Below are positions 6,274 to 55,104 of a DNA stretch of 59,463 bases, piece by piece. Source of the stretch: a bacterium (lineage in GTDB: Bacteria > Patescibacteriota > Saccharimonadia > Saccharimonadales > Saccharimonadaceae). The notes below the pieces were generated by a model that worked only from the letters and a program-made list of their open reading frames with translations, was not told where the DNA came from and did not search any database. The number at the start of each line of letters is the position of its first letter. Within the stretch, counting starts at the first letter, position 1. The stretch is taken from NCBI GenBank assembly GCA_029549925.1, contig JAKPIF010000026.1:1-59463 (forward strand), given 5' to 3'. A program made the translations under genes and the position numbers.

Positions 6274-6300
6274 TTAGCACTCGTGTGTCAAGAGTGCTAA
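6274..6300. promoter_or_regulatory. CIRCE operator upstream of dnaK
   Basis: TTAGCACTC-N9-GAGTGCTAA, exact consensus. Confidence 0.97.
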
Positions 6301-6309
6301 TTAAGATTT

Positions 6310-9021
6310 TTACAGACCCGATGTTAGTGTATAAATGACTCTGCCAGTATAAGTCCCAGCTGGCTGAGTAACAGATGTTGCGAAGCCAAATGTCGAGCGA
6401 ATGCTTGCAGCACTAGTTGCCTCAGCGCTAGATAGAATAGTCAGTGGCGAAGAGCTAGCTGGCACTTTTCGCCACTGCCCTGTCGACGTACCGTCGGTTG
6501 AGTCAAGTCGGAGCGACCAGCCATTTTGCCCTGCAACTGGCTCATTTATTGTAGACAAGGCGTGTTTGCCATCAGACAAGCTTGCGTCGCCATCCGCGTT
6601 CATGGTCAACGAGTATCCACCCTCGATACCATTCGTTCGCACGGAGCTGTCGATATAGCCAGTCGCCACCCCGCCAACTTTAGCTGTTAGGCTTAGAGCG
6701 TTATTTGAACCGCTGCTAGTCCGCGTCGTCATGCCGATACTGTTTGGCTGTGATGCGAGCGATACGTTTACCGTCTTGCGCCGGGCAATCGTTGTCGCAT
6801 GCGCCGTTCCGTCGCCCGTCGTCTCAACCGTTATTGTCGCCGTCGCCGGCGTCACTGCTGCTGCATCCACCTGATAATCTAAGGTAATCGGCGTCCGTTC
6901 AACGCCTTTGCCACCGTTATCCGCTGCCGCTGGAATGCCATTACTGTCATAAGTCGGCTGCTCGCCCGTAATATGCGCTTCTTTGCCCGCCGCCACCATG
7001 TTCGCCTCCAGCTTGTCCATGTCAATAGTTACCGTTGACGTACCATCATCGTTGGACGCCAAGGCGTAATCAGTATCTTTTTTTAGTGTGTATTCGCCAG
7101 TCTTTAGTGACCCATTTACTACCGTCAAGTATTTAGGCAAGGTGACAATAATTTTACTATTGGTATCCTGATTATACGTTCTCGGCGTGATTGATAAAGT
7201 CCCTGTCGAAGAGACATTGGTCGAATCATTTGCAGCAAGGTCAATCATCAACAACCCCGGTATCATGGTATATTTTCTAACGCCAACGTTTTTAAAGCTG
7301 TTCCATTCGGTAGTGCTAGCGACTGCGCGCGTCAGTTCCTTGGCCTTACCGTCAATAGTTTTATCAAGCACTTTAAACTCAATGTGATTAAACCAATAAG
7401 CATCATCAAGGCTATAGCGCTCGCTCTCTATTTTCAGCATAGATAAGTTAAGAATGGAACCAACAGTTGTCAATGCGCTTTGATAAGTATTTCCATTGTC
7501 GTCGGTAGTTAAGCCGTATGCACCACAGCCATTTGAAATATCAGGGAATCCGTCGCTCCCCAGCTTAGCGGCGCTTACTAGCGAATTGTTGTTGCGCGTT
7601 CGACCAGCATAATCTGCATGTGCCACGCTATACAACAAAAGACTACTCGGATTCCACGCAATGCAGCCAACATTATTCGAACTGTAGTCATTGGTTGCGC
7701 TGTTCGACGACATCACCGCCCTTAGTGGCACTATCTGTCCTTCGTAATAATGGTGATTATCCCACCAGTCAACTTCTTCCGTGGGATTATAAGTGATATA
7801 ATATTGGTTATTGTTATCATCGACGAAGGTCGTCATAGAGCCAGTCACCTGGCTAGTTAGCCAATACGAATATGTGGCATCTGATATATCCGCTTCCTGA
7901 GCACTATTAACACCAGTAAAATCAAACGCCTCAGCCTTAACATTGTAGGCCTTGGACGTTTTTGGAATATCAGTCAGCGGAACATAAATACCAATCTGCA
8001 TCAGGGACTGCGTACACCGGGTATCGCTCGTTGCTCGCGAGTTTCCCGAGGCATCTATATTACGGGCACATCGTGCTATCGCCGTAGCTGCGCCGGTCGT
8101 TTCAATATGTAGCGTGTCATCACCATTTTTAGAAACGCTTACTTTTCCGCTCTGGCCAGTCCGTGCGCCCCATCGTCCACCTTCATAGATATCAAATCCA
8201 CCACCAACATCGGTATGATGAACATACCACCCAGACGGCAACTCGCTCATGTCGATATCGAATGAATAGTTGCCGCCTTTAATTGGCTCAATGCCAAGAT
8301 TATTGGCTCGACCGTCAGTCTTCATGTATATACCAACGTCTAGGTTAAAATGGGTGTAGCCACTTTCAAAATGCGTCGATCCACCCGAAGATCCGAGCAC
8401 GACGCCATAATTCAGCCTCCCTACTACGGTTATCGGATCGATCACCACATTGGCCGCTCCATCGTTCACGGCCACACTTGGTGTTATAGTGTCGCCATTT
8501 CCGCCCCACGGCTTGGTTGTTATATCCCAACTCGAACTAACCATACCGTCGTCAGCATTGATATAACAAATCGCCTGATTAGCCACAATACTAGCCTTAT
8601 CATTGACGGCCGCTGCCTTGACTTCGCTCTTATGCGTTTCGTCGCTATCGCAACCACTAACCGAGGCTGTGTCGATATAATTGTTGACCGGCATAGTGAA
8701 CGTTAGCTTGATCCAACCACCGCTCGCCGTATAGTTCACACGATAACGCACCACGTTATTATTCAATATCGTGCGGCGAGAAGCATTATCCGCGCCATAG
8801 TCATTTTCATTCAGTGTTTCACCACGTATCGTTACGCTAGCTCCAGTACCTGCCTGCAATATCTGCACACCAGATATTTGCCCCATACCAGTTGTCTCCG
8901 CCCGTGCTAACTTAATCCTCTGATTTGAAATCAGCATTAGCGACACGCTTGCGCCAAATCCGCTCACCGCCATTATGCCGACGGCCAATAATATCTGAGA
9001 AATTTTCTTTTTAACGCCCAT
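6310..9021 (-). CDS. large secreted surface protein of unknown function
   Basis: 903 aa, N-terminal signal/TM, Thr/Ser/Asn-rich, C-terminus QPAGTYTGRVIYTLTSGL. Confidence 0.75.
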   Translation of the reverse strand: MGVKKKISQILLAVGIMAVSGFGASVSLMLISNQRIKLARAETTGMGQISGVQILQAGTGASVTIRGETLNENDYGADNASRRTILNNNVVRYRVNYTASGGWIKLTFTMPVNNYIDTASVSGCDSDETHKSEVKAAAVNDKASIVANQAICYINADDGMVSSSWDITTKPWGGNGDTITPSVAVNDGAANVVIDPITVVGRLNYGVVLGSSGGSTHFESGYTHFNLDVGIYMKTDGRANNLGIEPIKGGNYSFDIDMSELPSGWYVHHTDVGGGFDIYEGGRWGARTGQSGKVSVSKNGDDTLHIETTGAATAIARCARNIDASGNSRATSDTRCTQSLMQIGIYVPLTDIPKTSKAYNVKAEAFDFTGVNSAQEADISDATYSYWLTSQVTGSMTTFVDDNNNQYYITYNPTEEVDWWDNHHYYEGQIVPLRAVMSSNSATNDYSSNNVGCIAWNPSSLLLYSVAHADYAGRTRNNNSLVSAAKLGSDGFPDISNGCGAYGLTTDDNGNTYQSALTTVGSILNLSMLKIESERYSLDDAYWFNHIEFKVLDKTIDGKAKELTRAVASTTEWNSFKNVGVRKYTMIPGLLMIDLAANDSTNVSSTGTLSITPRTYNQDTNSKIIVTLPKYLTVVNGSLKTGEYTLKKDTDYALASNDDGTSTVTIDMDKLEANMVAAGKEAHITGEQPTYDSNGIPAAADNGGKGVERTPITLDYQVDAAAVTPATATITVETTGDGTAHATTIARRKTVNVSLASQPNSIGMTTRTSSGSNNALSLTAKVGGVATGYIDSSVRTNGIEGGYSLTMNADGDASLSDGKHALSTINEPVAGQNGWSLRLDSTDGTSTGQWRKVPASSSPLTILSSAEATSAASIRSTFGFATSVTQPAGTYTGRVIYTLTSGL

Positions 9022-9086
9022 CTACTTTTATCCTTTACCGACGTGGCACCCTATAGCAAAAAGTGGATAGCCCTGTACGCCGGGTT

Positions 9087-9214
9087 GCCTAAAAATAGAG
9101 CCTAAGCACTTGCGTCAAAGTCTCTGCCCAGCGACTGGGATGTCCAGTTTGACTTCGACGAACGAATAGGTGCATAGATATAGATAAAGTGCTTATTAAA
9201 TCTTATTTTTAGGC
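9087..9214 (-). ncRNA. candidate structured RNA or structured 5' leader
   Basis: nested perfect inverted repeats (11 bp, 9 bp, 6 bp, apical 5 bp) preceded by TTGACG-N18-TATACT-N6 on the minus strand. Confidence 0.45.
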
Positions 9215-9220
9215 ATTAGT

Positions 9221-9250
9221 AGTATACAAGGTTTTGCCGTGAGACGTCAA
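9221..9250 (-). promoter_or_regulatory. sigma70-like promoter for the candidate RNA
   Basis: TTGACG (9250-9245), 18-bp spacer, TATACT (9226-9221). Confidence 0.6.
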
Positions 9251-9259
9251 GTAAACTAG

Positions 9260-9919
9260 CTAATCTTTCAAGCAACCAATCGGAACAACATAGACGCCGT
9301 CCTCAGGGCGACGGTAGGCGGCTACACCGTTAGCTGTCAAAACCGCTTTAAATGTCGGTGCGCGCATCTTTGTTGTATCTATTTTATCTGCCAGTTTGTT
9401 TAGACTGATAACCGCCGATCCAATCGTATTATCATCTTGACCTAGCTTTATTTCGATTAGACCGTATTTCCCGTCATTGCCCGTCACCACCGCATCACAC
9501 TCTAAATCATTTTTATCACGGTAATGATAGACTTCGCCGCCATTGACGTAAGCGTAAACTCTTAAATCGCGAATACATAAGGTCTCAAATATGAAGCCAA
9601 AGGTGTTTAAATCGCCAATCAGTCCATCAGGCGTAGCTTTTAGGGAGCTCGCCGCAATTGATGGGTCGACATAATAATGTGTATCCGTCGAACGAATCGC
9701 TGTTCGCGAACGCAAATTAGGGCTCCACGCCTTTATGCTCTCAACGGCAAAAATATTGCTAAGAGCATTCAAATAGCTCTTTGCCGCTCGCTTAGCCGAA
9801 GTAGTTTTGCCACACCACTTAGCACCCTCAATGACGACCGCCCCTGAGCTACGCAGCTTAAAGCCAAGTATCTTATCAGTTACGCGCGGTTTATACGTGT
9901 TCTTCGCGCCGTTATTCAT
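9260..9919 (-). CDS. AAA_14/DUF4143-family ATPase, apparently internally deleted
   Basis: Walker A GAKWCGKTT joins directly to the C-terminal region (RSRTAIRSTDTHYYVDPSIAA, YHYRDKNDLECDAVV, IEIKLG); ATG at 9919 preceded by TATAAT-N6. Confidence 0.65.
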   Translation of the reverse strand: MNNGAKNTYKPRVTDKILGFKLRSSGAVVIEGAKWCGKTTSAKRAAKSYLNALSNIFAVESIKAWSPNLRSRTAIRSTDTHYYVDPSIAASSLKATPDGLIGDLNTFGFIFETLCIRDLRVYAYVNGGEVYHYRDKNDLECDAVVTGNDGKYGLIEIKLGQDDNTIGSAVISLNKLADKIDTTKMRAPTFKAVLTANGVAAYRRPEDGVYVVPIGCLKD

Positions 9920-9946
9920 AGCTAAATTATAGCTTATTACCACTAG

Positions 9947-9985
9947 CGTTGGCAAATTTGGCGGAAAATCGTTGGCAAATTTGGC
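9947..9985. repeat. two 16-bp direct repeats CGTTGGCAAATTTGGC
   Basis: identical copies at 9947-9962 and 9970-9985. Confidence 0.9.
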
Positions 9986-10162
9986 CGTAATTTGATAGTA
10001 AGTTTGGCGGATAGAGCAAAACTTACCGCCACATATTGACACTAGACTGTATAAATATTAGTGAGGCGTTAAGCCTAGTTCATTTCGAATGGGAGGCATC
10101 TATGGAGTTCGCTCTACGTAGTACAGAAGACGTTTTGCGAGAGAAAGAATACAATCTTGCAC

Positions 10163-11473: not shown

Positions 11474-11500
11474 TTAGCACTCACTATGCAAGAGTGCTAA
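11474..11500. promoter_or_regulatory. CIRCE operator upstream of hrcA-grpE
   Basis: TTAGCACTC-N9-GAGTGCTAA, exact consensus. Confidence 0.97.
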
Positions 11501-15349: not shown

Positions 15350-15856
15350 ATGCGCGTAATTGGCATCGATCCCGGAACGGGTATTCTCGGCTTTGGCGTG
15401 ATTGACTTTCAGCCACGCAAGAAGCCTGTCGTTCTGGATGTCGGTGTTGTGGCTACTCCCGCTCACACTCCACTTAAAACGCGCCTGCTCGATATCTATG
15501 ACTCACTAAACGAAATTATTGACACACATCATCCCGATGTCATGTCAATTGAAAAGCTCTTCTTTGCCCGCAACATTACTACTGCTATCAGCGTCGCCGA
15601 GGCACGCGGCGTAGTTATCCTCGTTGCCGCCCAGCACGATATGCCAGTCTATGAATATACCCCGCTGCAGATTAAGCAAACCCTCACTGGCTTCGGTCGC
15701 GCCGAGAAAAAGCAGGTTCAGGAAATGGTACGCTTGCAGCTCGGCATGAAAGAGATCGTTAAGCCCGATGATGCCGCCGACGCCCTTGCCGCCGCCATTA
15801 CCCACGATCTAATGAGTCGTGGCGGTGTGGCGCCCGAAAAGGACCTTCAGCTCTAG
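15350..15856 (+). CDS. ruvC: crossover junction endodeoxyribonuclease RuvC
   Basis: MRVIGIDPGTGILGFGV, IEKLFFARN, DAADALAAAI. Confidence 0.95.
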   Translation: MRVIGIDPGTGILGFGVIDFQPRKKPVVLDVGVVATPAHTPLKTRLLDIYDSLNEIIDTHHPDVMSIEKLFFARNITTAISVAEARGVVILVAAQHDMPVYEYTPLQIKQTLTGFGRAEKKQVQEMVRLQLGMKEIVKPDDAADALAAAITHDLMSRGGVAPEKDLQL

Positions 15857-15895
15857 CCTAGCTAGCCATTTTTGCTAGTGGTATATAATAGTGCT

Positions 15896-16909
15896 ATGGG
15901 AATTCAACGGATGGTAGAACCGACTGCTATCCCGGCCGAGCAGCCGGGCGCTACAGAGGAGGCTGCCGTTGAACAAACGCTACGTCCTCAGACCTTTGAA
16001 GACTACATTGGCCAGCCGCGGATGAAAAAGAATCTTAGACTTGCCATCGCGGCCGCTAAAAAGCGTGGCGATCCAATTGACCACGTTCTACTTTATGGCC
16101 CACCGGGACTCGGTAAAACGACCATGGCAGGAGTCATTGCTAACGAAATGGCCACGGGGCTACGCGTCACATCCGGACCAGCTATTGAGCGAGCCGGCGA
16201 TCTAGCCAGCATTCTAACTAATCTGCAGGATGGCGATATTCTCTTTATCGACGAGATTCACCGCCTCAGCCGCGCCGTAGAAGAAGTACTCTATTCTGCC
16301 ATGGAGGATTTCAAACTCGATATTGTTATCGGCAAAGGACCTGCTGCTCGCTCGGTGCGGCTAGATTTACCGAAATTTACCGTCATTGGCGCCACCACTA
16401 GGACGGGCAGCCTCGCCGCACCGCTCCGTGACCGCTTTGGCCATCTATTCCACCTCGAATTTTATTCCGTGGACGATATTAAAAAGATTATTGAACGAAG
16501 CGCTAAGATTCTCGAAGCGCCGATCAAGGACGACGCCGCCCTGGCCCTAGCTAAACGCAGTCGCCAGACACCGCGCATTGCTAATCGCCTCTTAAAGCGG
16601 GTACGAGACTATGCCGAAGTCCATGGCAGTGGGGTTATTGACATGAAGGCAACTGACGAGGCGCTAAGGCTTCTCGAGATTGATGAGCTCGGGCTCGACC
16701 CAGCTGATCGCCGTATGCTCAAGGCGATGTGGGATAGCTACCGCGATCACCCCGTGGGGCTTAATACCATCGCCGCCCTGACGGGCGACGAGGCGAGCAC
16801 CATTGAGGACTTTTATGAGCCATATCTGATGCAAATTGGCTTCATCGAGCGCACCCCGCGCGGACGCATAGTAACAATGAAGGCACGGAAGTATCTAGGA
16901 CTTAGTTAA
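15896..16909 (+). CDS. ruvB: Holliday junction helicase RuvB
   Basis: [38 protein letters not shown]; start at MGIQRM preceded by TATAAT-N6. Confidence 0.97.
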
Positions 16910-53160: not shown

Positions 53161-55104
53161 CTAGTGCGCACCCGTGTTCGGTGCGGCGATCCTACTTGAA
53201 CTACTTCTCGCGCCAGTCGAGCCACTCGATTTAGTCGACGACGAGCCCAATTTGGACGCACCGCTTGTTTTACTGCTACTAGAACTATCGCTATCTTTAT
53301 TCGACGTAGCTAGAGCCTTACTCGTCAGTTTATTGTTGGCTTCATTAGCCCAATCAGTCGCCATACTATCAGATTTAGTCTCGCTTTTAGACTTGTCGGC
53401 ATCATTTACACCACCATCCGATATGTCATCGCTCTCACTCTTATTCTCGGTATAAGTAAAGGCTTTTTCAAAGCGTATCTCATTTCCATCGTTATCAATT
53501 AAGCTGATATCGACCCGCCCTAGTTCATTGCCTTCGGGTAAAGTAAAGTGCAGCTTTTTATCTGACGTAACGCTCATCTTTGCAGGCACGTCATCAACAT
53601 CTACTTCGGCAACGAGTGGCACCTTCGCCGTTAGGCGGTCGCTCACCCGCGATGGCACATTCTGGAGGCCAGCTATAGCATTGATGCCACTGTTACCTGT
53701 CGCTGAACCACCCCAGGCATAGACATTGCCGTCACTATCGAGAGCAAAGCTATAACTGGCTACGTTGCCGTCGGCCGCGCCCGCCGCGATTACCTTCTCA
53801 ATTGTGGCATCGGCATTAACTAACTGGAAATTATCTGTAATATCTTCAATGTCGCCCCGATTACCTAGGCTCTGACCATCGCCGAGCTGGCCATAGCCGT
53901 CTGCGCCCCAACTAAAGACACGGCCGTATTGGCTGAGTGCTAGCACATGCGAGTTGCCGATACTAATCTGAGCGATTTTGTCATGATATTTCTTACCATT
54001 TTGTTCGTAATCGGGCAAAGTAAAATTATTCGTGATATCAATTGGAGTGCTGGAAAGGCGCTTACCCGTGTCTTTATCATTAGCATTAGGCACTTCGCCG
54101 TTTAGTCCTAGCGCACCTTGCTCATCGTTGCCCCAGATTAGCACCCGACCGAGCTTAGTCAGAACCGCCATGACACCGTTGCCTGCTTCAACATCAATCG
54201 GCTCGTCGTCTTCGCTTAGATCTAAATTAGCCAAAATATCGTAGTTCGCCATTGAATCATTGACATTATTACGCTCGCCAAATTTAGATCTACCGAGTTC
54301 ACCCGAAGTATTACGGCCCCAAGTGTAAATTTGGTCCCGCTCTGTTAGCATAATTGCCGAATGATTACCAATGCTCATACCCCACGAGCGATCACCATCG
54401 CCCACCAGCCAAATAGCTTCAGTCGGCTTAGTATAAAATCCCATCTGTTCATTAGCACCAGGCGCATCATACCGTCCGTCTTGGCGATTCCGCCGATCGC
54501 CCCAGATAAATACCTTACCGCTATGTGCCTCCGCCATGCTTAGATCCACGCCTGATTCAATGTGGTAAATATAATCGTCGCCAGAGATATTAAAGTTTTT
54601 GGTAATATCAATCGGGACGTTACTATCGCTCTGAGTGCCGTCGCCGAGCTCGCCATATTTATTCTTACCCCAAGAGAATACCCGGTGGCTACGGCTAATT
54701 GCAAAAGAGGAATAATCGCCAGAACTAATCTTTTCAATGTAGTCATCGCTCGCTAGATTGAATTTGTCTGTAATATCGACTGGCTTATATTGACATTTGG
54801 TGCGAATCGTCGTGAGTAGTCCCGCGCCGAGCTGACCATATTCATTACAGCCGAGCGTCCAGACATGGTGACTACTAGATAACATCACTAGGTGTTGCAC
54901 GCCAGCCGCAATATCGATAAATTGCTCGCGCTTTTCGCCCATGAAATTCTCGCCCGTAACAACAATGGTTTTGCCGCCGTCAATTGAACCACTATCGGGC
55001 GTTACCTTAGTAATATTTGGCTCGGCCATGGCTGGCGCAATTAAAGATATATTGAGTAATAAAGCTAGCGCCAGAGCGCACCGCACGTCGTGGTGGTATT
55101 TCAT
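53161..55104 (-). CDS. secreted IPT/TIG + RCC1-repeat protein ending APNTGAH
   Basis: ITKVTPDSGSIDGGKTIVVTGENF; WTLGCNEYGQLGAG, YTWGRNTSGELGRS, FSWGADGYGQLGDG repeats. Confidence 0.88.
   Translation of the reverse strand: MKYHHDVRCALALALLLNISLIAPAMAEPNITKVTPDSGSIDGGKTIVVTGENFMGEKREQFIDIAAGVQHLVMLSSSHHVWTLGCNEYGQLGAGLLTTIRTKCQYKPVDITDKFNLASDDYIEKISSGDYSSFAISRSHRVFSWGKNKYGELGDGTQSDSNVPIDITKNFNISGDDYIYHIESGVDLSMAEAHSGKVFIWGDRRNRQDGRYDAPGANEQMGFYTKPTEAIWLVGDGDRSWGMSIGNHSAIMLTERDQIYTWGRNTSGELGRSKFGERNNVNDSMANYDILANLDLSEDDEPIDVEAGNGVMAVLTKLGRVLIWGNDEQGALGLNGEVPNANDKDTGKRLSSTPIDITNNFTLPDYEQNGKKYHDKIAQISIGNSHVLALSQYGRVFSWGADGYGQLGDGQSLGNRGDIEDITDNFQLVNADATIEKVIAAGAADGNVASYSFALDSDGNVYAWGGSATGNSGINAIAGLQNVPSRVSDRLTAKVPLVAEVDVDDVPAKMSVTSDKKLHFTLPEGNELGRVDISLIDNDGNEIRFEKAFTYTENKSESDDISDGGVNDADKSKSETKSDSMATDWANEANNKLTSKALATSNKDSDSSSSSKTSGASKLGSSSTKSSGSTGARSSSSRIAAPNTGAH

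Follow-up and report, generated by a model that had tools for sequence, protein, structure and literature searches.

A structured leader ahead of a saccharibacterial surface-protein gene: a probable divergent copy in a family of putative transcription attenuators

The minus strand of a 59,463 nucleotide (nt) contig from a bacterium of the Saccharimonadaceae (JAKPIF010000026.1, assembly GCA_029549925.1), which belongs as C32 to a genome of 0.61 Mb and is called the window at its full length, carries from position 9214 to about 9057 a likely 5′ leader of a gene for a 903 amino acid surface protein. Comparison with related leaders suggests that it is a divergent copy of an undescribed leader family and that these leaders act as transcription attenuators, a reading to which we give a probability of about 0.6. 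The family comprises 21 copies, spread over three bacterial families within a single order, and four of the copies are in the window's genome. In the proposed mechanism, transcription is predicted to start at a G that is also the first base of a 9-24 base pair (bp) stem; the apical loop above this stem (segment P) and a downstream terminator arm (T) would then compete for a single strand, P′. Pairing of T with P′ would form a hairpin that halts RNA polymerase before the gene, and pairing of P with P′ would take P′ away, together with the run of uridines (U-run) in several members, and allow transcription to continue. In the window's copy, the rod would remain and block the 5′ end of the mRNA.

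Family architecture and covariation

The consensus begins with TATAAT, 6 nt and G(+1)UCUA, which opens an outer stem A of 9-24 bp. The rod above it often has a bulge or a small hairpin on its 5′ side and is capped by an apical hairpin with the loop P (AAUGGGCAGCC). On the 3′ side, the arm A′ ends in UAGAC and is followed by AGCC, 3-9 nt, P′ (GGCUGUCC), five or six U and a G. Next comes a same-strand gene, in many cases with AGGAGG. T (GACAGCC) is made of the GAC of A′ and the AGCC, and thus overlaps the rod end and extends it by 3-4 nt. In every member the stem starts exactly at the predicted +1, and the -10 element lies 6 nt from the stem base in 17 of the 18 aligned members.

By sequence comparison, P′ has two mutually exclusive partners. 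The first is T, with which it can form a terminator-like hairpin, placed with its U-run between promoter and gene and in most members worth -7 to -16 kcal/mol. The second is P, with which it can form duplexes that span about 10-19 bp in all members but the window's copy. Both this loop-terminator complementarity and the terminator-like sequence, just 3′ of where the original prediction (made from the window's sequence) had ended the element, go beyond that prediction.

A lack of compensatory change among relatives had been proposed there as a means of refutation; at the level of the family such change is found. In particular, in an alignment of 15 members (A6) that leaves out the window, C9 and G143 copies, 13 of the 17 tested pairs in A:A′ and P:P′ change on both sides, 97.6% of cells pair, and the covariation score is reached by none of 500 shuffles. 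Sliding the strands reduces pairing to 31-52%, though this control is somewhat favoured because a few of the A:A′ and P:P′ pairs were picked by eye from the same sequences. Permutation of loops among members is a more independent test, and the mean native P:P′ pairing is stronger than any of 20,000 permutations.

Two further ideas about the architecture failed. An extra copy of CAGCC (D), which lies just past the U-run in L084, L078, L082 and L083 and could pair with P′, is not significant over the members (permutation p = 0.16). A fold-back model, in which outer and inner stems would match in length, is also unsupported; the negative correlation seen between them is for the most part a product of how the stems were divided.

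A search of Rfam 15 (4227 models) places no riboswitch, T-box or leader class within the element or any member tested, and no match to the element appears even at E ≤ 10, in agreement with the earlier failure to recognise a known riboswitch or noncoding RNA family. An L10 leader (RF00557, 57.9 bits; L083:933-1074, minus strand) does lie near the leader of a pilin-like gene, outside the element and on the other strand. These organisms are absent from the main text of two genome-wide motif surveys (PMC6429828, PMC11109978). Literature searches on riboswitches and noncoding RNA in Saccharibacteria and on structured RNA in Patescibacteria returned no such motif, in coverage that largely omits subscription journals and so leaves room for a prior description. 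Within that coverage, the family appears to consist of previously undescribed leader RNAs.

Identification of family members

Members were collected by several routes. A structure model built from the single sequence (R1) was run against 394 genomes of the family and 295 of the order and yielded two further matches, on contig C9 of the same genome and in genome G143. Both lie upstream of DNA methyltransferase genes (for a C-5 methylase and an EcoRI-type enzyme), and the outer stem of each has its first base at the expected +1. The window and C9 copies share CAAAnTGGACATCCC and GGGCTrTCCAyTTTTTG; the local alignment score of the latter segment is 33, compared to a maximum of 31 in 2000 shuffles.

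A descriptor requiring a TATAAT-like element, 4-9 nt and an inverted repeat of at least 11 bp was run over loci fetched for other reasons, and revealed the same architecture ahead of two HaeIII-type C-5 methylases (G111 and G211) and a small membrane-anchored protein (G156). On stretches of the window's own genome, it located further copies on contigs C13 and C31. In the copies found by the descriptor, the rod is followed immediately on its 3′ side by a segment of the form GACAGyC-loop-GrCUGUCC-UUUUU.

Further, a pattern for the terminator segment that requires no promoter, rod or loop (GACAGN{3,14}CTGTCCN{0,2}TTTTTG) gave 17 matches in 13 of 295 family genomes, compared to one for the reversed control, and also brought in members from two further families of the order. 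A stem of at least 12 bp that ends at the T arm and is preceded by a -10 element occurs at 14 of the 21 distinct matches (17 under a slightly looser definition) versus 4 of 20,000 random anchors, where the anchors were drawn from loci that contain real members, and where C9, C13 and C31 (three of the 21) and G156 were already known when the pattern was written.

Not every match was accepted. Apart from the two own-genome copies and G156 (L041), which was the weakest match of the R2 search and was taken as real on its architecture, all R2 matches were set aside, the best of them (G388) being antisense to a coding gene. Pattern matches L076, L077, L079 and L093 were rejected because the architecture is absent. 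L029 (G143) has the rod, the promoter and P:P′ but lacks a nearby U-run and does not match R3; it is retained, with less confidence, as a divergent member. BLASTn of the leader against 60 relatives, phages and plasmids recovered only its own copy, and neither a surface-protein search for related loci nor two-part DNA patterns found anything in the viral contigs and genome contigs.

The genes directly downstream are varied. The products with a recognisable domain are C-5 and EcoRI-type methylases, which are the methyltransferases of restriction-modification systems, a DUF4190 membrane protein, a glycine-rich surface protein, a pilin-like protein whose N-methylation pilin motif is weak and a nuclease with a weak likeness to NucS. 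Several other products have only an N-terminal hydrophobic stretch, and small lipoproteins also occur, for which the label DUF4352-like is a reading of the sequence and not a Pfam match. In G108, three leaders (L078, L089 and L091) with an identical T-P′-U segment precede different predicted secreted proteins.

The window's copy and the case against attenuation

The features of the window's copy are listed in Table 1. The promoter hexamers, their spacers (TTGACG at 9250-9245, 18 nt, TATACT at 9226-9221, then 6 nt to the outer stem) and the pairing of the outer arms were all found on the minus strand as first described, as were the second stem and the CCCAG-TCG-CTGGG hairpin. The promoter-like sequence has 10 of 12 consensus matches in a consensus scan. 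The outer stem begins at the seventh base after the -10 element, and one more pair (T9215:A9086) extends it to a perfect 12 bp. The interior differs from the original prediction: the minimum-energy fold prefers a 10-bp inner stem over the GTCAAA/TTTGAC stem proposed there, and the one-sided bulge is present but measures 26 nt opposite 1 nt, not about 33 opposite 2.

The rod of the window's copy exceeds chance. The 128 nt from 9214 to 9087 fold with -41.2 kcal/mol, compared to a mean of -24.7 kcal/mol for shuffled sequences (z = -5.26; 0 of 200 shuffles), and the spacing between -10 element and stem recurs in the 20 related leaders, both of which uphold the claim of a structured RNA with its predicted start at the base of the outer stem. 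The element is also one of only two places in the window where perfect 12-bp arms repeat in inverted order across a spacer of 50-180 nt, against 0.38 expected per shuffled window. Elsewhere in the window, two further long inverted repeats with arms of 12 and 11 bp lie near each other (54217-54292 and 53913-54076).

Table 1. Positions of leader features and of the downstream gene in the window.
Feature	Positions	Strand	Basis
-35-like hexamer TTGACG	9245..9250	-	sequence, consensus scan
-10-like hexamer TATACT, 6 nt 5′ of +1 G	9221..9226	-	consensus scan; spacing as in relatives
Outer stem 5′ arm A GCCTAAAAATA; predicted start at +1 (G9214)	9204..9214	-	sequence, fold
Second stem 5′ arm TAAGCACTT	9187..9195	-	fold
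One-sided bulge, 26 nt	9161..9186	-	minimum-energy fold
Inner stem 5′ arm CGTCGAAGTC	9151..9160	-	fold
Apical loop segment P TGGACATCCC, identical in C9 paralogue	9137..9146	-	comparison
Inner stem 3′ arm GACTTTGACG	9113..9122	-	fold
Second stem 3′ arm AAGTGCTTA	9103..9111	-	fold
Outer stem 3′ arm A′ TATTTTTAGGC	9087..9097	-	sequence, fold
Degenerate terminator 5′ arm T GGCAACCC, counterpart of GACAGCC in intact members	9082..9089	-	alignment
P′ GGGCTATCC, counterpart of GGCTGTCC in intact members	9065..9073	-	comparison with members
U-run TTTTT, aligns with family U-runs	9058..9062	-	sequence, alignment
Probable ribosome-binding site AAAGGA	9031..9036	-	sequence
Downstream gene, 903 amino acid predicted surface protein, no Pfam family	6310..9021	-	annotation

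Several results weigh against the attenuator reading. The window's copy retains the promoter, the rod with its outer stem 6 nt after the -10 element, and the U-run, with the gene starting at 9021. Its P:P′ pairing (-10.6 kcal/mol) ranks 17th of 18 and falls short of at least 10 bp, its T:P′ hairpin (-5.5 kcal/mol) is too weak to count as a terminator, and the site is not among the terminators that the consensus scan calls. A held-out covariance model finds it at full length and in register with a marginal score of 18.8 bits (E = 0.054 over 453 kb), compared to 37.8 bits (E = 1e-6) for the C9 paralogue. For the family as a whole, the U-runs are short (U5-6), and a nested fold made to contain P:P′ is less stable than rod plus terminator by about 8-23 kcal/mol; P:P′ would therefore need to form as a pseudoknot or transiently, with the help of a factor, or in trans. 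Terminator-like sites elsewhere in the window show little excess (25 versus 18.9 expected), and intrinsic termination in this organism is thus an assumption.

Overall, the window's copy, the most degenerate of the family, is probably a decayed and divergent member, joined to the family mainly through the C9 paralogue, and the other three copies in the same genome were not foreseen by the original prediction. Because both of its alternative pairings have decayed, its leader perhaps now mostly reads through.

Alternative explanations

An explanation that we hold to be rather unlikely is that the terminated leader acts in trans as a small RNA, its loop P pairing with P′ of nascent copies of the same or sister leaders and blocking their terminators. 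The family would then be a natural trans antitermination network, in which the shared loop AAUGGGCAGCC opens sister terminators and couples surface, pilin-like and restriction-modification genes, as a natural counterpart of synthetic transcription-activating RNAs (STARs). The order of synthesis is in keeping with it, as the rod has already folded when P′ is transcribed; in addition, P:P′ in cis is a poor competitor of the rod and terminator together. Moreover, the cores of P and P′ are conserved across loci and genera, and the three G108 leaders have the same P′ and are fully cross-compatible. This core conservation may, however, reflect common descent, and intact leaders of the window's genome favour their own loops (-30.4 kcal/mol for C13 with itself, about -15 to -19 kcal/mol with the C9 or C31 loops), which suggests action in cis. 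In pT181-type attenuators and STARs (PMC5435934), RNA pairing to a terminator or antiterminator strand likewise sets read-through and contacts of hairpin loops initiate it; the family here differs in that one and the same transcript carries the complementary loop, which matches the 3′ half and the U-run.

The retained rod of the window's copy, in which the switch is gone, is accounted for if the rod only stabilises the mRNA, its blunt double-stranded end shielding the transcript from RNases that depend on the 5′ end and the terminator being incidental. Long-lived mRNAs such as ompA carry 5′-terminal stabilising hairpins, and the stem here likewise lies at the extreme 5′ end of a surface-protein mRNA, starting exactly at the predicted +1 as a protective hairpin would. 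The family differs from the ompA type by the conserved terminator that follows and by a loop complementary to it; with the covarying P:P′ and the conserved terminator between promoter and gene unexplained, stabilisation by itself is an unlikely function.

The architecture of an attenuator, and a loop core AAUGGGCAGCC conserved beyond what pairing needs, would also suit a riboswitch-like leader that binds a ligand or protein, with the rod as sensor and P:P′ as secondary tuning. We regard this as very doubtful: the interior of the rod differs in sequence, length and secondary structure among members and offers no conserved pocket, the downstream genes have no common metabolic theme, and Rfam gives no match.

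It is highly improbable that the inverted repeat functions as DNA, either as the ends of a mobile element or as a split HrcA/CIRCE-type operator. The segment does lie in a block that is missing between grpE and dnaK of a sister genome, and its inner arm resembles half a CIRCE, of which intact copies stand at 6274-6300 and 11474-11500. CIRCE spacing is 9 nt, compared to 75 nt here, for which the inner arm was rejected as a CIRCE; further, no other copy of the outer arm exceeds chance, and the arm sequences vary among members while their pairing persists and the arm stays locked to the promoter.

A 6S-type RNA that binds RNA polymerase was an analogy first drawn from the closing stem, open bubble and terminal hairpin; the long rod and an end near a U-run would also fit it. 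It is extremely improbable, as there is no sequence or covariance match to 6S (Rfam, E ≤ 10), the bubble is one-sided, and a genome may carry the element several times, immediately in front of genes. The other option offered at the time, a structured leader of the downstream gene, holds up well, with nearly every relative having a same-strand open reading frame directly 3′.

Genomic neighbourhood

The minus-strand order around the element is hrcA, grpE, a DUF4143 protein gene, the element, the gene for the 903 amino acid protein (which has an N-terminal hydrophobic stretch), CIRCE and dnaK. A sister genome from the same genus has only a short open reading frame on the opposite strand between grpE and CIRCE-dnaK; because the trio of DUF4143 gene, element and surface-protein gene is missing at that site, it appears to be an accessory block. 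In its N-terminal part, the DUF4143 protein (9260-10042) matches AAA-type families no more than weakly, and it is possibly a truncated relative of DUF4143 ATPases. The two CIRCE operators of the window, one before dnaK and one before hrcA, are perfect HrcA sites.

The same genome encodes a paralogue of the surface protein with 34% identity (contig C39). No such leader was seen upstream of this paralogue in the stretch read, nor ahead of a distant homologue in G013, and the leader thus does not simply travel with the surface protein.

Elsewhere in the window, ruvC and ruvB are adjacent (15350-16909); ruvA is on contig C9 (L043:7207-7794), next to the C9 element and a C-5 methylase gene. In the sister genome, ruvC, ruvA and ruvB stand together.

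Discussion

The family resembles the leaders of attenuators and terminator-type riboswitches in its order of promoter, structured leader, terminator-like hairpin with U-run, and gene, and in having an alternative partner for a terminator arm. It differs from them in that the competing strand is the loop of an apical hairpin, the leader is blunt at +1, and no Rfam class applies. For one candidate motif, associated with a folate-related gene, a proposed pseudoknot that joins a preceding hairpin to the terminator stem-loop would prevent termination (PMC11109978); its logic is like that put forward here, and the motif is a different one.

Gene regulation in Saccharibacteria is little known, and this family sits on genes for surface proteins, pilin-like proteins and DNA methylases. 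Type IV pili and surface-associated proteins that are predicted adhesins are among the functions essential in a saccharibacterial species, and inducible expression has still to be developed for these organisms (PMC11665869). The family is a precise RNA element of promoter, rod, loop and terminator, in which compensatory change maintains the complementarity between loop and terminator. Should the switch prove functional in a standard in vitro transcription assay, it would supply a native control part for these organisms; if instead the trans network were true, the expression of surface, pilin-like and restriction-modification genes would be coupled in bacteria with small genomes.
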